Source: a virus. From it: DNA of 37,126 bases. Made by a program: the position numbers and the translations under genes. The stretch covers positions 1 to 37,126 of the IMG/VR virus record IMGVR_UViG_3300031718_000027. The stretch is one strand, 5' to 3'. Positions 2,327 through 37,126 of the stretch are shown one piece after another. A model generated the notes under the pieces. That model saw nothing but the letters and a program-made list of their open reading frames with translations, did not search any database and was not told where the DNA came from. How positions within the stretch are numbered: position 1 is the stretch's first letter; every line of letters begins with the position of its first letter.

Positions 2327-2554
2327 GTGACGCGACAGCAGATTATCGACGACGCGCAGCAGGAACTTCCCCCGACCCGTCGCGACCAGGTGGCCGCCAC
2401 AACGCGCAACCTCGCGCGGTCCCGAGTCCCCGCGACGAGGCTCCCGACGCGTGCAGAGCTTGCGGCGCTTCGCGAGGAGGTGCGGGCCAAGAACTCCCGC
2501 GAGCGCGAACTGCCCAGCAGCGGTACGGGTGGGAGAGAGGGGGCTGCGAAGTGA
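2327..2554 (+). CDS. Small charged helical protein, hypothetical
   Basis: A 75-residue protein with a GTG start and AAAGGG upstream at about 2313-2318. It is rich in Arg, Glu, Gln and Ala and predicted helical (RAELAALREEVRAKNSRERE). No family is recognised. Its TGA overlaps the GTG of the PP-loop gene by 4 bases, so it may be translationally coupled to it. Confidence 0.5.
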   Translation: MTRQQIIDDAQQELPPTRRDQVAATTRNLARSRVPATRLPTRAELAALREEVRAKNSRERELPSSGTGGREGAAK

Positions 2555-3384
2555 GCGCCAGGGGACCGATGGGCATCGAAGTTTATAGGATGCTTCCCCG
2601 CATCTCGGTGCTGCGGTGGGGCGGCGGGGTCAACTCGACGGGATTGGCCTGTGAGATGGAGGAGCGCGGCGAGCGGCCCGACTTCATTTCGTTCTCCGAC
2701 ACGGGCGGTGAGAAGAAGGCAACGTATGCCTTCATCGCAGAGTTTCGCGCGTGGCTCAAATCGGTGAGCTGGCCCGATTTGACAATTGTCGGATACGAAA
2801 CCGAAGCCGGCGACAAGTCTTTGTATGACTATTCGATCCGCGTCTCCGAGTTGCCATCGAGGGCCTATGGGCTTGGCGGATGCGCCGACAAGTGGAAGAT
2901 CCGCCCTTTCGAGAAGTGGTCTAACCATCAGGCGCGCATCAAGGCTCTAAGGTCGGTGGGCGGCAAGCCCTGTGCCCTACTTGGCTACGACGCAGGCGAG
3001 GCGCACCGATACGCAAAGCGGGAGAATGAGCGCTGGACGTTCCGTGCTCCACTGATTGACTGGGGGATAGACCGCGACGGCTGTATCGCTGCGATCAAAC
3101 GCACGGGACTCCCCGTGCCTCCCAAGTCGGCTTGCTATTTTTGCCCGTCGAGCACGAAAGCGGAGATTCTCGCCCTATCAAAGAGGGAGATTGCCAATTC
3201 CCTGGCCATGGAAGACAAGGCGCGGGCCGCAGGCAAGCTAAAGACGGTCCAGGGTCTCGGTCGGCGCTTCTCGTGGCGCCAGTTTCTTGAGGCCGATGAA
3301 GCTGGTCGGGCACTGTTACCCGAGGCCCCGGTTGAGCCCTGTACCATGTGCGCAGACGACAGTGACGACAGGGAGGATTCATGA
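2551..3384 (+). CDS. PP-loop ATPase, PAPS-reductase-like
   Basis: A 277-residue protein of the adenine nucleotide alpha-hydrolase / PAPS reductase-like superfamily. Residues 20-31 read VLRWGGGVNSTG, a PP-loop for ATP or adenylyl binding. DTGGE at 50-54 matches the conserved Asp-Thr-Gly segment that follows the second strand. CYFCPSS at 195-201 is a CxxC that in relatives binds an iron-sulfur cluster or zinc. Such stand-alone PP-loop genes are common in phages. They are inferred to adenylate a substrate, in sulfur transfer or nucleobase modification, but the substrate here is unknown. GTG 2551 overlaps the previous stop; ATG 2569 or 2590 are alternative starts that keep the PP-loop. Confidence 0.85.
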   Translation: MSARGPMGIEVYRMLPRISVLRWGGGVNSTGLACEMEERGERPDFISFSDTGGEKKATYAFIAEFRAWLKSVSWPDLTIVGYETEAGDKSLYDYSIRVSELPSRAYGLGGCADKWKIRPFEKWSNHQARIKALRSVGGKPCALLGYDAGEAHRYAKRENERWTFRAPLIDWGIDRDGCIAAIKRTGLPVPPKSACYFCPSSTKAEILALSKREIANSLAMEDKARAAGKLKTVQGLGRRFSWRQFLEADEAGRALLPEAPVEPCTMCADDSDDREDS

Positions 3385-11740: not shown

Positions 11741-12144
11741 CAGATGCCCCGCAGTGAAACGGCAAGCCGTTGGTTCAGCGTCGCCGACCCGCCACCAGTG
11801 CGAATGTAGCTGAAGCGCGCCCACTTCGCGCGCGGGCATGGGTCGAACTGATAGAGGAAGTTCTGCGCGACGTCTGCGCCGGCCGGGAACGCGGCAATTT
11901 GCGCCGCCGTGAAGGTGACCGCCGTGGGTGGCTGCAGGAGCTGCGCGTCGGTCTTCTTATTCGCGTCGGGATCGTCGGAGACCTCCATGGTGTAGCTCGC
12001 CGTCGGGCTTCCGCTTCCCGCTGGAATGGTCGCGATGAGGCCGATCGAGTTGGCGTCTTCGATCCAAAACCACGCCCCCACGAAGCTCGCGTTTGAGGCG
12101 ATCGCCCCCTTGCTGTAGTTCTCATTCGTCCGAAAACGACTCAT
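11740..12144 (-). CDS. Virion-associated small protein, hypothetical
   Basis: A 134-residue protein. ATG 12144 follows AAGGAACTGCG, a good ribosome site, so the longer frame to 12549 is rejected. It is beta-rich (FVGAWFWIEDANSIGLIATI, SYTMEVSDDPDANKKTD) with a C-terminal strand pair. It has about the same size and composition as its downstream neighbour, so the two may form one complex. No family is recognised. Confidence 0.65.
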   Translation of the reverse strand: MSRFRTNENYSKGAIASNASFVGAWFWIEDANSIGLIATIPAGSGSPTASYTMEVSDDPDANKKTDAQLLQPPTAVTFTAAQIAAFPAGADVAQNFLYQFDPCPRAKWARFSYIRTGGGSATLNQRLAVSLRGI

Positions 12145-12710
12145 CGCAGTTCCTTTCTCACGCCGATGTCCCTCCGGTCGGCGGCCGTCCCCGACATGTC
12201 GGGAGTGGTCTCTGGTTTCTTGGTCTTCGCTTCGTGCGCGGCCATTTGCTTTTCGGGCGACTCGGCCGACTGTAGCAGTTGCGCGGGCGGCATGCCGAAG
12301 AGCACACCGACGACGGTTTCTGCCCACTCGCGATACGGCGGCACGGAGTCCATCAGCTCGCGCAGCACTTTCTCGACGAGCACCGTGTACACCTCGGGGA
12401 ACGCCGCCTTGATGGCCTCCACCTCGTCCGGGATGAGCATGCCGGCGCGGAGCAGCGCGCGCGGCCGCTCCATCGGCGCGGAGAGCACCGCGAACAGCCT
12501 GTCGATGCGGTCCTGGTCGACGTCCGAAAGCGGAAGCGGCGCGCCCCACTTGTCATACTGCTGCTTCGGCGCCATGAGACGCAGGTAAGCGCTCGCGGGC
12601 GTGCCCTGGCCCGCGACCTCTGTCTTCGAGATGGCGCCCATGAGCGCCTCCAGGGCGACGTGCGGTGGCATCGGGGGCGCCTTGGCGGGCGGATCGTGCA
12701 TCCAGCTCAT
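12141..12710 (-). CDS. Tail/ejection-region protein, hypothetical
   Basis: A 189-residue, mainly helical protein with a Pro-rich start (HDPPAKAPPMPPHVALEAL) and a charged, Lys/Glu-rich C-terminus. ATGA overlaps link it to the genes on both sides. No family is recognised; its position suggests a virion or assembly role. Confidence 0.65.
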   Translation of the reverse strand: MSWMHDPPAKAPPMPPHVALEALMGAISKTEVAGQGTPASAYLRLMAPKQQYDKWGAPLPLSDVDQDRIDRLFAVLSAPMERPRALLRAGMLIPDEVEAIKAAFPEVYTVLVEKVLRELMDSVPPYREWAETVVGVLFGMPPAQLLQSAESPEKQMAAHEAKTKKPETTPDMSGTAADRRDIGVRKELR

Positions 12711-32662: not shown

Positions 32663-32863
32663 TTACGTGCCGAGTATTTGACGCGCGTCGTCCGCGGTCA
32701 AGAACCCGCGCTTCTGCCAGTCGTCGACGAGCTGCCGGCGCGCCTCTTGGGACACGCCCGGGACCGTCTTGAAGTACTCGCGGATCCGCGCTGCGTTCGC
32801 GGTGGAGTGCTTCGCGCCGTAGAACAGGAGCATCGACCCGTCGAAGCCGTATGGCTCACTCAT
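32663..32863 (-). CDS. 66-residue helical protein
   Basis: ATG 32863 overlaps the stop of the 19-residue frame upstream. It is a helical protein (TANAARIREYFKTVPGVSQE then RRQLVDDWQKRGFLTADDAR). The second half resembles a small helix-loop-helix of the kind in DNA-binding or short toxin/antitoxin-like proteins, without a clear family. Confidence 0.6.
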   Translation of the reverse strand: MSEPYGFDGSMLLFYGAKHSTANAARIREYFKTVPGVSQEARRQLVDDWQKRGFLTADDARQILGT

Positions 32864-32919
32864 GGGGCAGCCCGTGCGCGCAGCGACTCAAAACCCGTGA
32901 CCAATTCCAGTTTTTCCAT
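32860..32919 (-). CDS. 19-residue coupled reading frame
   Basis: ATG 32919 to a TGA that overlaps the next ATG. The product (EKLELVTGFESLRARAAP) is short and acidic to basic. It is probably a ribosome bridge or a micropeptide. Confidence 0.3.
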   Translation of the reverse strand: MEKLELVTGFESLRARAAP

Positions 32920-32921
32920 GG

Positions 32922-33005
32922 CTATCCCGCGCTCGCAATCAACCCGATGAGCAGAATCCCCAGGAGCACGACGCAGGCGCGGTGGAGCGTCTCGCGCGGG
33001 GTCAT
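32922..33005 (-). CDS. 27-residue membrane peptide
   Basis: ATG 33005 overlaps the upstream TGA by 4 bases. After a short basic start it is a hydrophobic helix (CVVLLGILLIGLIASAG). It belongs to the first genes transcribed leftward. It could be a small inner-membrane peptide, for example one that blocks superinfection. No family is recognised. Confidence 0.5.
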   Translation of the reverse strand: MTPRETLHRACVVLLGILLIGLIASAG

Positions 33006-33109
33006 GACTCGCACACGAAGCCCAACTCGCACTCGCGCGCCGAGGCCAGGCGCACCCCGTTGACCGGGAGCTTGCTCACTACTATGCGATCGCCGACTGC
33101 CAAGGTCAT
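33002..33109 (-). CDS. 35-residue small beta-like peptide
   Basis: ATG 33109 overlaps the stop of the ribbon-helix-helix gene, and its own TGA overlaps the next ATG. It is strand-rich (TLAVGDRIVVSKLPVNGVRL). Codon use is normal for this genome. No function can be given. Confidence 0.5.
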   Translation of the reverse strand: MTLAVGDRIVVSKLPVNGVRLASARECELGFVCES

Positions 33110-33240
33110 GACGCCCCTAACTGCAAGCGCACGTAGTCGCTGAGCGTGCGCGGCGCGGCGCACTTCTTCCAGCGCTCCAACTCCTCGCGCGTGCAGCGCA
33201 CGACGACGCGGCACCCGTCTTTCGGCTTCTTTTTGGCCAT
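33106..33240 (-). CDS. Ribbon-helix-helix DNA-binding protein (candidate repressor)
   Basis: A 44-residue protein, first gene of the leftward unit. A basic start (AKKKPKDG) leads to a strand CRVVVRCT (10-17), helix REELERWKKCAAP and helix TLSDYVRLQL. This is the order of the ribbon-helix-helix fold of Arc/CopG repressors, which bind palindromic operators as dimers of dimers. The promoter directly ahead of it contains a GTGTACAC palindrome. The same palindrome recurs twice at the rightward promoter, so it may regulate both, including itself. ATG 33240 is 7 bases from the -10, so the mRNA is probably leaderless. Confidence 0.65.
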   Translation of the reverse strand: MAKKKPKDGCRVVVRCTREELERWKKCAAPRTLSDYVRLQLGAS

Positions 33241-33247
33241 TCGTGGT

Positions 33248-33275
33248 AGTGTACACGTCCAGACAAAATAGACAA
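33248..33275 (-). promoter_or_regulatory. Leftward promoter for the ribbon-helix-helix operon
   Basis: On the minus strand TTGTCT (complement of 33270-33275) and TACACT (complement of 33248-33253) are separated by 16 bases. The predicted start site falls at or beside the ATG at 33240. A direct repeat AGACAA occurs at 33261-33266 and 33270-33275. Confidence 0.5.
33249..33256. promoter_or_regulatory. Operator candidate O1 (GTGTACAC)
   Basis: A perfect 8-base palindrome overlapping the -10 of the leftward promoter. Two further copies lie at the rightward promoter 360-390 bases away. A protein bound here would block RNA polymerase. Confidence 0.5.
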
Positions 33276-33350
33276 GGAGCGCGTCAATGAGGTTGATCGC
33301 GAGAATCCAGAGGCGACTTTTGCGGAGCCCACGGATGGGGCCGCGCAGTC

Positions 33351-33596
33351 ATGGCTATCGGATACGAGCCCAGCCTTCGGCGGACAATCGTCATGGCCGC
33401 CGCGCGCATGGCCTTCTATTTTGAGACGGGGAAAATACCACGCCTCTTCGTCCTCCACCGCTGCGACAATCCCGCGTGCGTGAACCCCAGTCACCTTGAG
33501 ACCGGGACGCAGCGCAAGAACGTCCGGGACATGGTCACACGGGGACGGCACCGGGGCCCGATGTCCTGGGCCCAGGCCTGCGCCGCCCGTATTTAA
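33351..33596 (+). CDS. HNH nuclease, apparently N-terminally reduced
   Basis: An 81-residue protein with FVLHRCDNPACVNPSHLETG at 33-52 and QRKNVRDMVTRGRHRG after it, the core of the HNH_3 family. The usual N-terminal segment with the Trp-rich start and AHRV is missing or altered (AAARMAFYFETGKIP instead). The frame is closed upstream. Another ATG at 33287, with a strong AAGGAG, opens a different 45-codon frame (to 33424) that overlaps it. It may be a decayed or frame-disrupted homing nuclease. Confidence 0.6.
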   Translation: MAIGYEPSLRRTIVMAAARMAFYFETGKIPRLFVLHRCDNPACVNPSHLETGTQRKNVRDMVTRGRHRGPMSWAQACAARI

Positions 33597-33611
33597 CGCG
33601 GCGCATTTTAT

Positions 33612-33621
33612 CGTGTACACG
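33612..33621. promoter_or_regulatory. Operator candidate O2 (CGTGTACACG)
   Basis: A perfect 10-base palindrome upstream of the rightward promoter. Its centre is 32 bases from that of O3, about three helical turns, which would put two bound proteins on the same face of DNA. Confidence 0.55.
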
Positions 33622-33635
33622 CGACGTCGAAAGAC

Positions 33636-33664
33636 TTGCGCGGCGTGTACACGCGTGCGATTCT
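33636..33664 (+). promoter_or_regulatory. Rightward early promoter
   Basis: TTGCGC at 33636-33641 and GATTCT at 33659-33664 with a 17-base spacer. The spacer contains O3. The predicted start is at or next to ATG 33671, and there is no ribosome site ahead of that ATG, so the transcript may be leaderless. The -10 is a modest match. Confidence 0.45.
33643..33654. promoter_or_regulatory. Operator candidate O3 (GCGTGTACACGC)
   Basis: A perfect 12-base palindrome in the spacer of the rightward promoter. It has the same core as O1 and O2. Confidence 0.55.
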
Positions 33665-33670
33665 ACTTTC

Positions 33671-33919
33671 ATGAACAAGACGCAAAATGCTCCGACGGTT
33701 GCTCTGATGCTCTCCGATCTCCGCGACTACGAGCGCTCCATGGCGACGCTTGGCGTTGCGCTCACCGACGACGATCGCGCCGCGCGGCTCTACTATGCCG
33801 CGCTCGATCACACCGCGCCGCGCGCGGCCTGGCGCCGCGCGGACGACGTGCAGGCGTTCTACGAGACAGCGCTCGCGGCGCTCGCTTTCTGCAACCTCGT
33901 CGACTCGGTGTGCTCATGA
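33671..33919 (+). CDS. First rightward early gene, hypothetical
   Basis: An 82-residue helical, Ala/Asp-rich protein (SDLRDYERSMATLGVALTDD then ALDHTAPRAAWRRADDVQAF). No ribosome site is seen ahead of ATG 33671, which lies 7 bases past the predicted -10. The stop overlaps the next ATG by 4 bases. No family is recognised. Confidence 0.65.
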   Translation: MNKTQNAPTVALMLSDLRDYERSMATLGVALTDDDRAARLYYAALDHTAPRAAWRRADDVQAFYETALAALAFCNLVDSVCS

Positions 33920-34143
33920 CTCCCACATTCTGGACCCAGCCGAACGAGGACGAGCAGAACCCGCCCGAGGAAATGCCGCCCGTGTGTGGCGAATGCGGCG
34001 AGACGCATGAGGCTGGCGGGTGCGCCGAGTTCGAGACCACGGCGCAGGACCGCGCCGCGATTCGCGAGTACGAGAGCCGCCAAGCGCGGCGCCGTGGCGA
34101 GACCGGATTCGATACCCTCGAAGAGTACCGAGGTGAGAAGTGA
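33916..34143 (+). CDS. 75-residue acidic protein with a Cys knuckle
   Basis: ATG 33916 overlaps the preceding stop; the longer frame from 33496 is a shadow. It has an acidic start (WTQPNEDEQNPPEEMPP), then CGECGETHEAGGC, a likely small zinc knuckle, then a charged helix. No family is recognised. Confidence 0.6.
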   Translation: MTPTFWTQPNEDEQNPPEEMPPVCGECGETHEAGGCAEFETTAQDRAAIREYESRQARRRGETGFDTLEEYRGEK

Positions 34144-34466
34144 ACCCCGACCTGTTCGAGCGGATGTTCCCCGCGTCGCAGTTCCGCCCGGAACCGAAGG
34201 TGACCGCCGAGGAATCCCGCGGTATCCAGGCGCTTCTGCGCAAGGGCGAAGTGCGTGAGGAGCGGGCCGCCGCCCGCAAGGCAAAGCGAGACGCCGCGCG
34301 CCGCGCTCTCGTGGACAACCTGATCCGCGACGTGAAGGAGGGCATCCTCATGTTGCGTGACGTGTACGGGTTGCCCGTGACCGACGAGATGGCCAGCGAC
34401 AGGGCGAACAATATCGTGTGCGGCTTGATTGCGAATCACGACATCCGAGCATTGGAGACCCCATGA
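34140..34466 (+). CDS. 108-residue helical basic protein
   Basis: GTG 34140 follows GAGGTGA and overlaps the previous stop. It has strong helical, Arg/Ala/Lys-rich content in the middle (EVREERAAARKAKRDAARRA). The end (LPVTDEMASDRANNIVCGLI) looks like a second helical unit. It may bind nucleic acid. No family is recognised. Confidence 0.65.
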   Translation: MNPDLFERMFPASQFRPEPKVTAEESRGIQALLRKGEVREERAAARKAKRDAARRALVDNLIRDVKEGILMLRDVYGLPVTDEMASDRANNIVCGLIANHDIRALETP

Positions 34467-34708
34467 CCATGTTTCGTACCCTTACCGCCCACGAACTCAA
34501 GGCAATTCTCGACGCGCATCGCCTTTGGCGATCGAGTGAAGGCAAGGAAGGTTCGCGCGCGCCCAATTCGAATCGCCCGGCCGAGCGGCGGTTTCTCGGT
34601 ATCGGCAAGGGCTCGACGCCGGCCACGAACCAGGTGGCGGCGATTTCCGAGGGTTGGATTAACGAATGGCTCGCGGCGCATGTCGCCGCGGAGGAGGCTG
34701 GCAAGTGA
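34463..34708 (+). CDS. 81-residue protein resembling the leader part of pentapeptide-repeat proteins
   Basis: ATG 34463 overlaps the preceding stop. TAHELKAILDAHRLWRSSEG resembles the N-terminal segment that precedes pentapeptide repeats in many phage proteins, where it reads like L..IL..H..WL...GG. Here no repeats follow; the remainder is short and basic, then helical (SEGWINEWLAAHVAAEEAGK). It may be a shortened relic or a distinct small protein. Confidence 0.55.
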   Translation: MTMFRTLTAHELKAILDAHRLWRSSEGKEGSRAPNSNRPAERRFLGIGKGSTPATNQVAAISEGWINEWLAAHVAAEEAGK

Positions 34709-34935
34709 AAGCGCCCGCCTGTACGAAGCACGACGGCGATGCAATGGACCTCGACGAGTGCGCCGACTGCATCGCCTGGATGGAAGGCGAGGAGGCGTAC
34801 TGGTCGGCGTACTTCGGTGGCCCGTCAGTCATCAAGGCGACCGTCGCGAACGAGAAGTTCTACGCCGAGGAGTTGGGCATCGACATTGCGCACCCGACGG
34901 CGGAGACAATGGAGCAGCTCAGGAGGTTCAAGTGA
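34705..34935 (+). CDS. 76-residue protein with Cys/His start
   Basis: GTG 34705 overlaps the previous stop. It begins KAPACTKHDGDAMDLDECADC, a plausible Cys/His zinc site, then has an acidic and aromatic helix (AWMEGEEAYWSAYFGG). The longer frame from 34666 is not supported. No family is recognised. Confidence 0.6.
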   Translation: MKAPACTKHDGDAMDLDECADCIAWMEGEEAYWSAYFGGPSVIKATVANEKFYAEELGIDIAHPTAETMEQLRRFK

Positions 34936-36200
34936 GCGACGGCGAAGACACGCGGCTCGTCCCCTCGAACGGCCGCCAGCCCGCACTCCCGCCTGCCGAC
35001 GTCGCGGCCATCGCGCCGCCGCGCGACCCATACGTCGGTATCGGTCTCGCGCCGTGGACGCCCGACCAGCAGGCGATTCTCCGTCGCCCGCTCGCCGACG
35101 ACGAGATCGAAGTGCGCCCCGACGATGGCGTGCTCTACCTGCCGGGAGTGCGCTGGCGCATGCGGCTCAACGATGCGTTCGGCGTCGGCGGCTGGGGCCT
35201 CGCGCACCATGGCGATCCGAAGGTGAACGGGAACCAGGTGTTCGCGCCGATGCGGCTCTATGTGCTCGGCCGCTTCGCCGCGGAAGCCATGGGCGAGGGC
35301 AAGTGGATCGAGCGCAATCCCAAGTCCTCGTTCGGCACGGCGCTAGAGAGCGCCAAGACGGACGCGCTCGGGCGCTGCTGCAAGGACATGGGCATCGCGC
35401 TCGAACTCTGGGATCCGCGCTTCACGCGCAAGTGGCGCAGCGAGAACGTGATCCAGATTCGCAACCCGGACCCGTCGCGATTCGGGAGCGCGCCGAAGGT
35501 CTGGGTCCGCAAGGATGACCCATGCGTCGCGAAGGACTCGCCGCGCGACCCGCCAGCGCCCGAGGCAGAATCTGCGGCGCCCGTCGTCGTGACCGAGGCT
35601 GCGAAAACGGCGGCGAAGGTGCCCGCGACGGGCGGCCCCATTACACCCGAGCAAATCACGATGATTCACACGCTCAGGTCCAAGGTCGGCGGCCTCACCG
35701 ACGAGACCTATCGCAAGACGATTGCCGTCTACCGCAAGGCCGATGGCTCCCGCTGCGTCGGAGAAGACGGCAAGGGCACCAGCAAGGCCCTCAGCAAAGA
35801 CCAAGCGTCGCACTACATCGGGCGCCTGGAGGACCAGATCCACAAGCAGCACATGCGCATCGACGAGCGCGTTGACACGACGGCCGACGATCTGGAAGCC
35901 GTCACCGGGAAGCCGATCGACTTCGACGACGCGCCAATCGACGCGCCGCCTGTGAACGCAAGCGGGAAGAAGTGGGCGCCGAAGACGCCCACACTCGAGG
36001 AGCTGCTGGAGACGCATCTGTCGGACCCCGAGGACCCCGAGGCCAAGGGCGCATGGCTTGAGGCGATGTTCGGCCTGCGCCACGTCCAGGAGTTGAGCGA
36101 CGAGGAAGTCAAGACGGCATTCGCGTTGCTCTCGGTGTTCGGGACGCCAGAGTATGATGGCCGCGAGGCGGCATGCAGGGCAATAGGCAAGATTCGATGA
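34932..36200 (+). CDS. Rad52/Mgm101-type single-strand annealing protein
   Basis: A 422-residue protein; GTG 34932 overlaps the previous stop. Residues about 77-160 carry MRLNDAFGVGGWGL, VLGRFAAEAMG and ALESAKTDALGRCCKDMGIA followed by LELWDPRF. This pattern is that of Mgm101 and the Rad52 superfamily, which anneal single strands and promote recombination. The region after about 190 is a linker, then a helical domain (TPEQITMIHTLRSKVGGLTD) and an acidic end. It is the only recognisable DNA-metabolism gene in the rightward early region and is likely central to recombination-dependent replication and end repair. Confidence 0.85.
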   Translation: MSDGEDTRLVPSNGRQPALPPADVAAIAPPRDPYVGIGLAPWTPDQQAILRRPLADDEIEVRPDDGVLYLPGVRWRMRLNDAFGVGGWGLAHHGDPKVNGNQVFAPMRLYVLGRFAAEAMGEGKWIERNPKSSFGTALESAKTDALGRCCKDMGIALELWDPRFTRKWRSENVIQIRNPDPSRFGSAPKVWVRKDDPCVAKDSPRDPPAPEAESAAPVVVTEAAKTAAKVPATGGPITPEQITMIHTLRSKVGGLTDETYRKTIAVYRKADGSRCVGEDGKGTSKALSKDQASHYIGRLEDQIHKQHMRIDERVDTTADDLEAVTGKPIDFDDAPIDAPPVNASGKKWAPKTPTLEELLETHLSDPEDPEAKGAWLEAMFGLRHVQELSDEEVKTAFALLSVFGTPEYDGREAACRAIGKIR

Positions 36201-36697
36201 GTTTCCCGACCTTCTGCGACGCCTGCAAAGCGCGCGTGGAATGGCACCCGACGCACAACGGTAAGTCGATGCCCATCGACCCCGATCCGCACGCCGAGGG
36301 CCGATTCTACTTCGGCGCCGGGTTGAAGCTCCACGTCGGGCGCGCCGGCATTCGCCCGCGCATGTACCGGTGTCACTGGGATACCTGCGCGAAGGGTCAC
36401 GACGCGAGCAAGCGCGCACTTCGCGGGAACTACTCGGAGCGAGCCGACCAGTGCGATCGTTGGAACTGCGAGCGCGACCCCGACGACGGACACCGGCACT
36501 GTTTCAAGTGCGGCGACGTGGAGCGCCTCAACCCGACGCGCGTCCGCACGCTGACCCGCACGGCCGACCCGGCGGTAGCCTTTGCCGTCGCGAGAATTTG
36601 GGCGGCGATGCAACCCTCGGATAGTCGGATCGTCGTCACGAACCCAAGCGGCAAGTATGCCGTCAAGATTGAACGCCACGAACAGGAGATCATATGA
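36197..36697 (+). CDS. Cys/His-rich protein, hypothetical
   Basis: A 166-residue protein. ATG 36197 overlaps the annealing-protein stop by 4 bases; an upstream in-frame ATG at 36173 would add eight residues. It has several potential zinc sites: CDACKARVEWHPTHNGKSMP near 7-26, CHWDTCAKGH near 58-67, and CDRWNCERDPDDGHRHCFKC near 85-104. MPIDPDP in the first block recalls small phage zinc proteins that sit near replication genes. It could assist the annealing protein. No family is recognised. Confidence 0.7.
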   Translation: MSFPTFCDACKARVEWHPTHNGKSMPIDPDPHAEGRFYFGAGLKLHVGRAGIRPRMYRCHWDTCAKGHDASKRALRGNYSERADQCDRWNCERDPDDGHRHCFKCGDVERLNPTRVRTLTRTADPAVAFAVARIWAAMQPSDSRIVVTNPSGKYAVKIERHEQEII

Positions 36698-37126
36698 GAC
36701 GCGTCAAGCGAATCGACAAACTCACGCCGGCCCAGGAAGCCCGTTTCGCCGAGTGGCGCGATAAATACATCGCCATTGGATTGCGCACAGGACAGGCCGA
36801 TCGCGCTCGCTTTGAAGCGGCCATTCCTGAATGCTACCGCGGCGCTGGCCTGCCACCACCGAAACGAATCGTGTGGGTATCTTCTCCGTTGGTGCTCTCG
36901 CTTGCGGCGCCAATCGCAAATATGATTCTTCGTGATCATCGCGGCGCGGTTGGCGGCGCGGTTGACGGCGCGGTTGGCGGCGCGGTTGGCGGCGCGGTTG
37001 GCGACGCGGTTGGCGACGCGGTTCGCGGCGCGGTTGACGGCGCGGTTCGCGACGCGGTTGACGGCGCGGTTCGCGGCGCGGTTGACGGCGCGGTTGACGG
37101 CGCGGTTGACGACGCGGTTCGCGACG
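36694..37126 (+). CDS. DUF6745-type repeat protein, N-terminal part (continues at base 1 of the window)
   Basis: ATG 36694 follows AGGAG with good spacing and overlaps the previous stop by 4 bases. The N-terminal 80 residues (TPAQEARFAEWRDKYIAIGL, then RIVWVSSPLVLSLAAPIANM) match the start of DUF6745 proteins as I know them. From about residue 83 the protein is Val-X-X-Ala repeats to the contig end. The frame joins exactly with base 3 of the window, giving one gene that ends at 1415. The true copy number is uncertain because the assembly opens here. Confidence 0.8.
   Translation, partial: MRRVKRIDKLTPAQEARFAEWRDKYIAIGLRTGQADRARFEAAIPECYRGAGLPPPKRIVWVSSPLVLSLAAPIANMILRDHRGAVGGAVDGAVGGAVGGAVGDAVGDAVRGAVDGAVRDAVDGAVRGAVDGAVDGAVDDAVRD
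36943..37126 (+). repeat. 12-bp coding minisatellite, right part (14 full units plus partial)
   Basis: Same unit as at bases 1-768. The first GTT is at 36949. The order of residue pairs at the variable positions is GG, DG, GG, GG, GD, GD, RG, DG, RD, DG, RG, DG, DG, DD, RD. No synonymous change is seen here. Confidence 0.97.
37055..37126. repeat. Direct terminal repeat, right copy (72 bp)
   Basis: Identical to bases 1-72. No longer suffix of the window matches its start. See the left copy for the ambiguity caused by the tandem array. Confidence 0.7.

Follow-up and report, generated by a model that had tools for sequence, protein, structure and literature searches.

A predicted minimal ribbon-helix-helix repressor and shared palindromes at the head of two divergent phage operons

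We analysed a virus record of IMG/VR (37,126 bases; the whole stretch, in the following called the window), which lacks end repeats. According to a codon-usage gene call, all leftward genes lie between 33240 and 6445, and all rightward genes are found right of 33671 or left of 6443; the junction 33240/33671 is the only place in the contig where the two arms diverge. We infer that the contig is circularly permuted, or else that it ends within the early arm. The left arm encodes a terminase (PHROG 2) and a connector-like protein (PHROG 332). It also encodes an SU10-like capsid protein, whose Pfam match (E 4.1e-05) scores 23.7 bits, below the cut-off of 24.1. Rightward genes of the left end include those of a DUF6745 protein (792-1415, +; Pfam 2e-30) and of a PAPS-reductase-like protein (2551-3384, +; PHROG 424, 7e-23). 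The features of the junction are as follows.

32663..33109 (-): remainder of the leftward operon, with genes of 35, 27, 19 and 66 aa, mostly joined by ATGA overlaps
33106..33240 (-): gene of a predicted ribbon-helix-helix (RHH) repressor of 44 aa, called from codon usage, ATGA coupling and a weak RHH profile score
33246..33275 (-): putative leftward promoter TTGTCT-16-TACACT, read by eye, 7 nt to the ATG
33249-33256: O1, GTGTACAC, 8-bp perfect palindrome on the putative -10/start of the 44-aa gene
33351..33596 (+): HNH endonuclease gene between O1 and O2 (Pfam HNH_3 1e-8, PHROG 1872 6.6e-21)
33612-33621: O2, CGTGTACACG, 10-bp perfect palindrome upstream of the putative right promoter
33637..33665 (+): putative rightward promoter TTGCGC-17-GATTCT, read by eye, 6 nt to the ATG at 33671
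33643-33654: O3, GCGTGTACACGC, 12-bp perfect palindrome between the putative right -35 and -10
33671..37126 (contig end) (+): rightward operon of eight genes with 4-nt overlaps
34932-36200 (+): Mgm101/Rad52-like recombinase within the rightward operon (Pfam Mgm101p 5.5e-43)

The 44-aa gene is the first of five in the leftward operon, which shows 4-nt ATGA overlaps at three of its four joints and can be traced as a coupled unit through these five small genes only. Given this coupling and its positive codon-usage score, the gene is credible, i.e., it is real by context. The first-pass annotation had placed a 44-residue gene here, with palindromes that link it to both outward promoters; gene and sites hold, and the sites head both divergent operons. 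It had also proposed a switch for both arms of the genome, of which the five coupled genes would be the traceable part on the left. A further palindrome, GTCATGAC at 33001 and 33105, is accounted for by two of the ATGA gene overlaps. The HNH gene in the regulatory gap is probably a separate, likely mobile insertion into the switch. For the recombinase, tblastn gave no match in 50,697 phage records.

Both promoters are by-eye readings rather than results. A consensus scan of 32800-34000 reported no sigma-70-type promoter; the leftward candidate agrees with the consensus in 8/12 letters, which is under the threshold of that scan, and the hexamers of the rightward one match the consensus poorly. 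Since the hexamers end 7 and 6 nt before the respective starts and no Shine-Dalgarno sequence precedes the start codon of either operon, both transcripts may be leaderless.

To the three sites the first-pass annotation had assigned coordinates and lengths of 8, 10 and 12 bp, an O2-O3 centre distance of 32 bases (about three turns) and, as the only further exact copy noticed, one at 12385-12392 in a coding region, all of which we reproduce. In the window, GTGTACAC occurs exactly four times (12385, 33249, 33613 and 33645), compared to a mean of 0.15 in shuffled windows, none of which reached four copies. Three of the copies (33249-33256, 33613-33620 and 33645-33652) fall within 404 bp at the divergent junction, while the fourth is located inside a predicted gene (12141-12710, -), as chance predicts. 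Of the Markov-simulated windows, 1/300 contained an 8-bp palindrome of any sequence with four or more A/T letters three times within 450 bp. Near the junction, there are no one-mismatch GTGTACAC sites and only a single two-mismatch site. The centres of O2 and O3 are 32 bp apart, i.e., 3.05 turns at 10.5 bp per turn. DNA looping from O1 to O2/O3 is not favoured, since O1 is 364 bp (about 34.7 turns) away from O2 and 396 bp (about 37.7 turns) away from O3, measured between centres, which is out of helical phase.

Whether the 44-aa protein is an RHH protein was assessed in several ways. It shows no match in Pfam, NCBIfam, PHROG, PDB sequences or Foldseek. The nearest curated model is NikA-like (E 0.13), which we take to be of RHH type. 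No curated RHH family is thus matched, a test that is insensitive for such short proteins because many true RHH genes (e.g., those of loci L027 and L365) miss Pfam as well. Against a profile of 14 RHH proteins, from which the 44-aa protein was left out, its frame ranks 1st of 660 window ORFs with a weak score of 8.3 bits. This score exceeds those of all 2000 shuffles of its own sequence, and the chance top score among the ORFs of related contigs is 7.1 bits. The sequence follows the pattern VVVRC-helix-PRTLS-helix, which may fit the RHH layout of a ribbon with a hydrophobic-Arg-hydrophobic end, a helix, a loop of G-x-S/T/N type and another helix, and VVVRC...PRTLS aligns with HVRVS...GRTLS of L365, with Pro replacing Gly (hhalign P 3e-4, probability 39.5). 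Two AlphaFold monomer models are of low confidence (pLDDT 65.8 and 60.0); both place helices at 18-27 and 33-42, i.e., at the RHH helix positions, with no strands assigned, whereas an RHH protein would form a swapped dimer in which a beta ribbon accompanies two helices. The protein terminates directly after the second predicted helix and so has no C-terminal toxin-binding tail, which is a feature of type II antitoxins (RelB, ParD, Phd/YefM). A palindrome on the own promoter, a trait of RHH genes, is present as O1 on the putative -10, where it would serve as operator. The 44-aa protein is likely, though not proven, to be RHH, an assignment that its sequence supports weakly.

Neither among phage records nor in the related contigs described below was a direct relative of the 44-aa gene found, and host genomes gave no relative. 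Single-protein searches with the terminase, the recombinase and the first right-hand gene returned no viral relatives either. Starting from remote phage homologues of the terminase, we built an alignment, and only thereby retrieved 12 viral records, most of them fragments, whose terminase is 56-63% identical to that of the window and whose structural genes follow the same order. Neither GTGTACAC nor a detectable RHH gene is present in any of the 12. One relative, G011 (35.8 kb, L219/L220), retains the recombinase together with the gene that precedes it. Just upstream of its recombinase operon, a 22-nt site (L219 13270-13291) lies on a promoter reading TTGACG-17-TAATGT-7-ATG, and an inverted copy that is alike in 18/22 positions (L219 13582-13603) is found where the preceding small unclassified gene putatively starts. 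Such an inverted likeness was reached by 1/200 simulations. Judged by this arrangement, G011 seems to use a parallel logic, i.e., a small gene and a site common to two promoters, with other parts.

A scan of viral contigs for pairs of GTGTACAC with a spacing of 9-39 nt, run without any protein as a guide, yielded 79 clusters. In five of them, no more than 28 nt separate the pair from the start of a small RHH-like gene: L068/L359 (RHH_1 E 0.004), L027/L365 (misses Pfam), L090/L349/L394 (RelB-like E 7e-4), the L019 group (HicB-type E 2e-4) and L089 (RHH_5 E 0.015). The five RHH gene clusters are mutually unrelated. A weak NCBIfam match of L068 to the archaeal regulator aCcr1 was set aside as a generic RHH match. 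In four further clusters (L032/L036/L092, L109, L388 and L390), the pair directly precedes Phd/YefM-type antitoxin-like genes, where the assignment of L109 was made by eye and lacks a Pfam match. For the control palindrome GTGATCAC, RHH or Phd genes were found in none of 73 clusters (40/52 short downstream ORFs scanned against Pfam, the remainder inspected by eye). The enrichment is borderline for RHH genes only (5/79 vs. 0/73, p = 0.059); for RHH plus Phd genes the counts are 9/79 vs. 0/73. Since the scanned loci were selected for carrying the site, its presence there is no evidence of conservation. As unrelated phages, they lend independent support to such palindromes as candidate RHH operators. 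Among open papers, we found none that links GTGTACAC to an RHH protein.

The same scan returned two other recurrent arrangements. In L031/L049/L059 and similar contigs, an integrase-like gene (MLTDTKLRKALGKK) starts immediately after a GTGTACAC pair with a spacing of 29-31 bp. In about 20 similar contigs (L009/L017/L023 and 17 more), GTTTACACT repeats flank a conserved GTGTACAC pair with a spacing of 21 bp.

We then compared operator letters with ribbon residues. Protein similarity was the sole criterion by which relatives of the L068, L019 and L365 proteins were collected from annotated phages and plasmids; their upstream DNA was then read. Each relative read from the L068 family has two similar sites, one directly after the -35 and one directly after the -10, with the following letters.

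L068 and L405 (61% identity): ribbon QLKIR, site GTGTACAC twice
L407: ribbon QLKIK, site GGTACACC
L406: ribbon EYRIR, site GTGTCACC
L408: ribbon EVKAR, site GTGGCACA
L409: ribbon DVKVR, site GGAACACA
L410: ribbon NTRIR, site GGTAACAC

For L027/L365 and L090, the relatives found in genomes, phages and plasmids amount to only two distant Streptomyces plasmid types. In the L027 group, the ribbon RHVRV occurs with GTGTACAC, and the Streptomyces plasmid relatives (KHNVRV or RNIRV) occur with CTGTACCTACAG. Within the L019 group, proteins with FHMRI have GTGTACAC, and those with FQIRI have GTGTGTACC/GGTACGCAC. This shift of site letters with the ribbon, seen by eye in few families, would be expected from a direct reading of the site by the ribbon.

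The best reading of the junction, to which we assign a probability of roughly 0.6, is an autoregulated minimal RHH repressor that would also shut the presumed early operon; fold, binding, repression and timing are predicted here. The 44-residue protein would dimerise, and at each GTGTACAC palindrome its two-stranded ribbon would enter the major groove. On O1, a dimer would cover the -10/start of its own, putatively leaderless operon and thereby cause autorepression. O2 and O3 would be on the same helix face, three turns apart, such that two dimers could cover the rightward promoter and thereby silence the early operon, including its recombinase gene. With accumulation of the protein after infection, the early operon would be closed and the protein's own level held constant. 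Against this reading stand the lack of family and structure matches, the weak profile score, the low model confidence, the poor rightward hexamers, the borderline RHH enrichment and the absence of gene and sites from the relatives. A further point against it is that the own promoter has one site here, while the own promoters of the other RHH genes have pairs.

Several known systems are close to such an arrangement. Arc of phage P22 is a small RHH repressor of 53 residues from the immI region, whose 21-bp operator of paired half-sites lies between the -35 and -10 of the controlled promoter. The window shares with it a small phage RHH repressor (predicted here) and a site between -35 and -10; it differs by its single perfect palindromes of 8-12 bp, and no sequence match was found. 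CopG of plasmid pMV158 has 45 residues, i.e., nearly the same size, and is likewise an autorepressor of its own operon, a role that the 44-aa protein would share. It differs by its operator core and its function in plasmid copy control, and sequence similarity is not detectable.

The predicted action of a viral RHH repressor on its own and a second promoter is also known from SvtR and AvtR of archaeal viruses, which repress their own gene and another viral promoter (PMC5569661); in contrast to the window, these act on archaeal promoters with longer imperfect repeats, and AvtR combines two RHH motifs in one chain. RelB of E. coli, a proven RHH repressor, binds its own promoter at an [A/T]TGT[A/C]A core (PMC2812701). 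As differences, RelB is an antitoxin with a toxin partner, and its adjacent hexads allow no spacing; no toxin gene was recognised here, i.e., none of the window genes scanned (a set without the three shortest operon neighbours) belongs to a toxin family. YefM binds palindromes with a TGTACA core on its own promoter (PMC4803016); it is an antitoxin as well and has the Phd/YefM fold, not RHH. In the L068, L027, L090 and L019 groups and L089, a small RHH gene has the identical 8-bp palindrome on its promoter, with the difference that the own promoters there carry two sites 22-45 bp apart.

The palindromes could instead be operators of another protein, i.e., a host regulator or an unrecognised phage protein of HTH or Phd/YefM type, with the small gene being a bystander or regulating something else. 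We regard this as rather unlikely. In its favour, GTGTACAC pairs also lie on the four Phd/YefM antitoxin-like gene clusters, YefM reads TGTACA (PMC4803016), and many small window genes have no family match. On the other hand, none of 48 further window genes was recognised as encoding a Phd/YefM or HTH regulator, and the position of O1 on the promoter of an RHH-looking gene is the usual pattern of autoregulation.

Sites that serve replication or recombination (as initiator or origin repeats) rather than transcription are considerably less probable still. In favour of such a role, the recombinase belongs to the operon that starts at the junction, and the two arms diverge from there; but the copies are only three, they sit on putative promoter elements, and a longer iteron array was not found. 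We give the least credence, very little, to coincidence or to an incidental feature, e.g., a hairpin at the right promoter. O3 was indeed flagged as a weak terminator-like hairpin, yet 0.8 such matches are expected by chance from the terminator scan; and with 0.15 expected copies per window and clustering in 1/300 simulations, a chance origin of the sites is rejected.

Beyond the autoregulated RHH repressor of this window, GTGTACAC might be a recurrent operator that was reached independently by unrelated phage RHH repressors and by Phd/YefM antitoxins, with letters readable from few ribbon residues and the 44-aa two-operon repressor among its smallest versions. We put this forward tentatively, as an idea that has some chance of being right but is rather doubtful as a whole.

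The proposed switch is of an ordinary phage kind; what is unusual is the small size of the predicted repressor, and the operator assignment is new. If true, a two-operon phage switch is predicted and its operator assigned for a phage group without isolates in the searched collections. The wider observation may matter more, i.e., that small RHH genes of uncultivated phages have paired palindromes in fixed slots whose letters track the ribbon. Such ribbon-tracking letters would let operators be predicted from sequence and tested cheaply.
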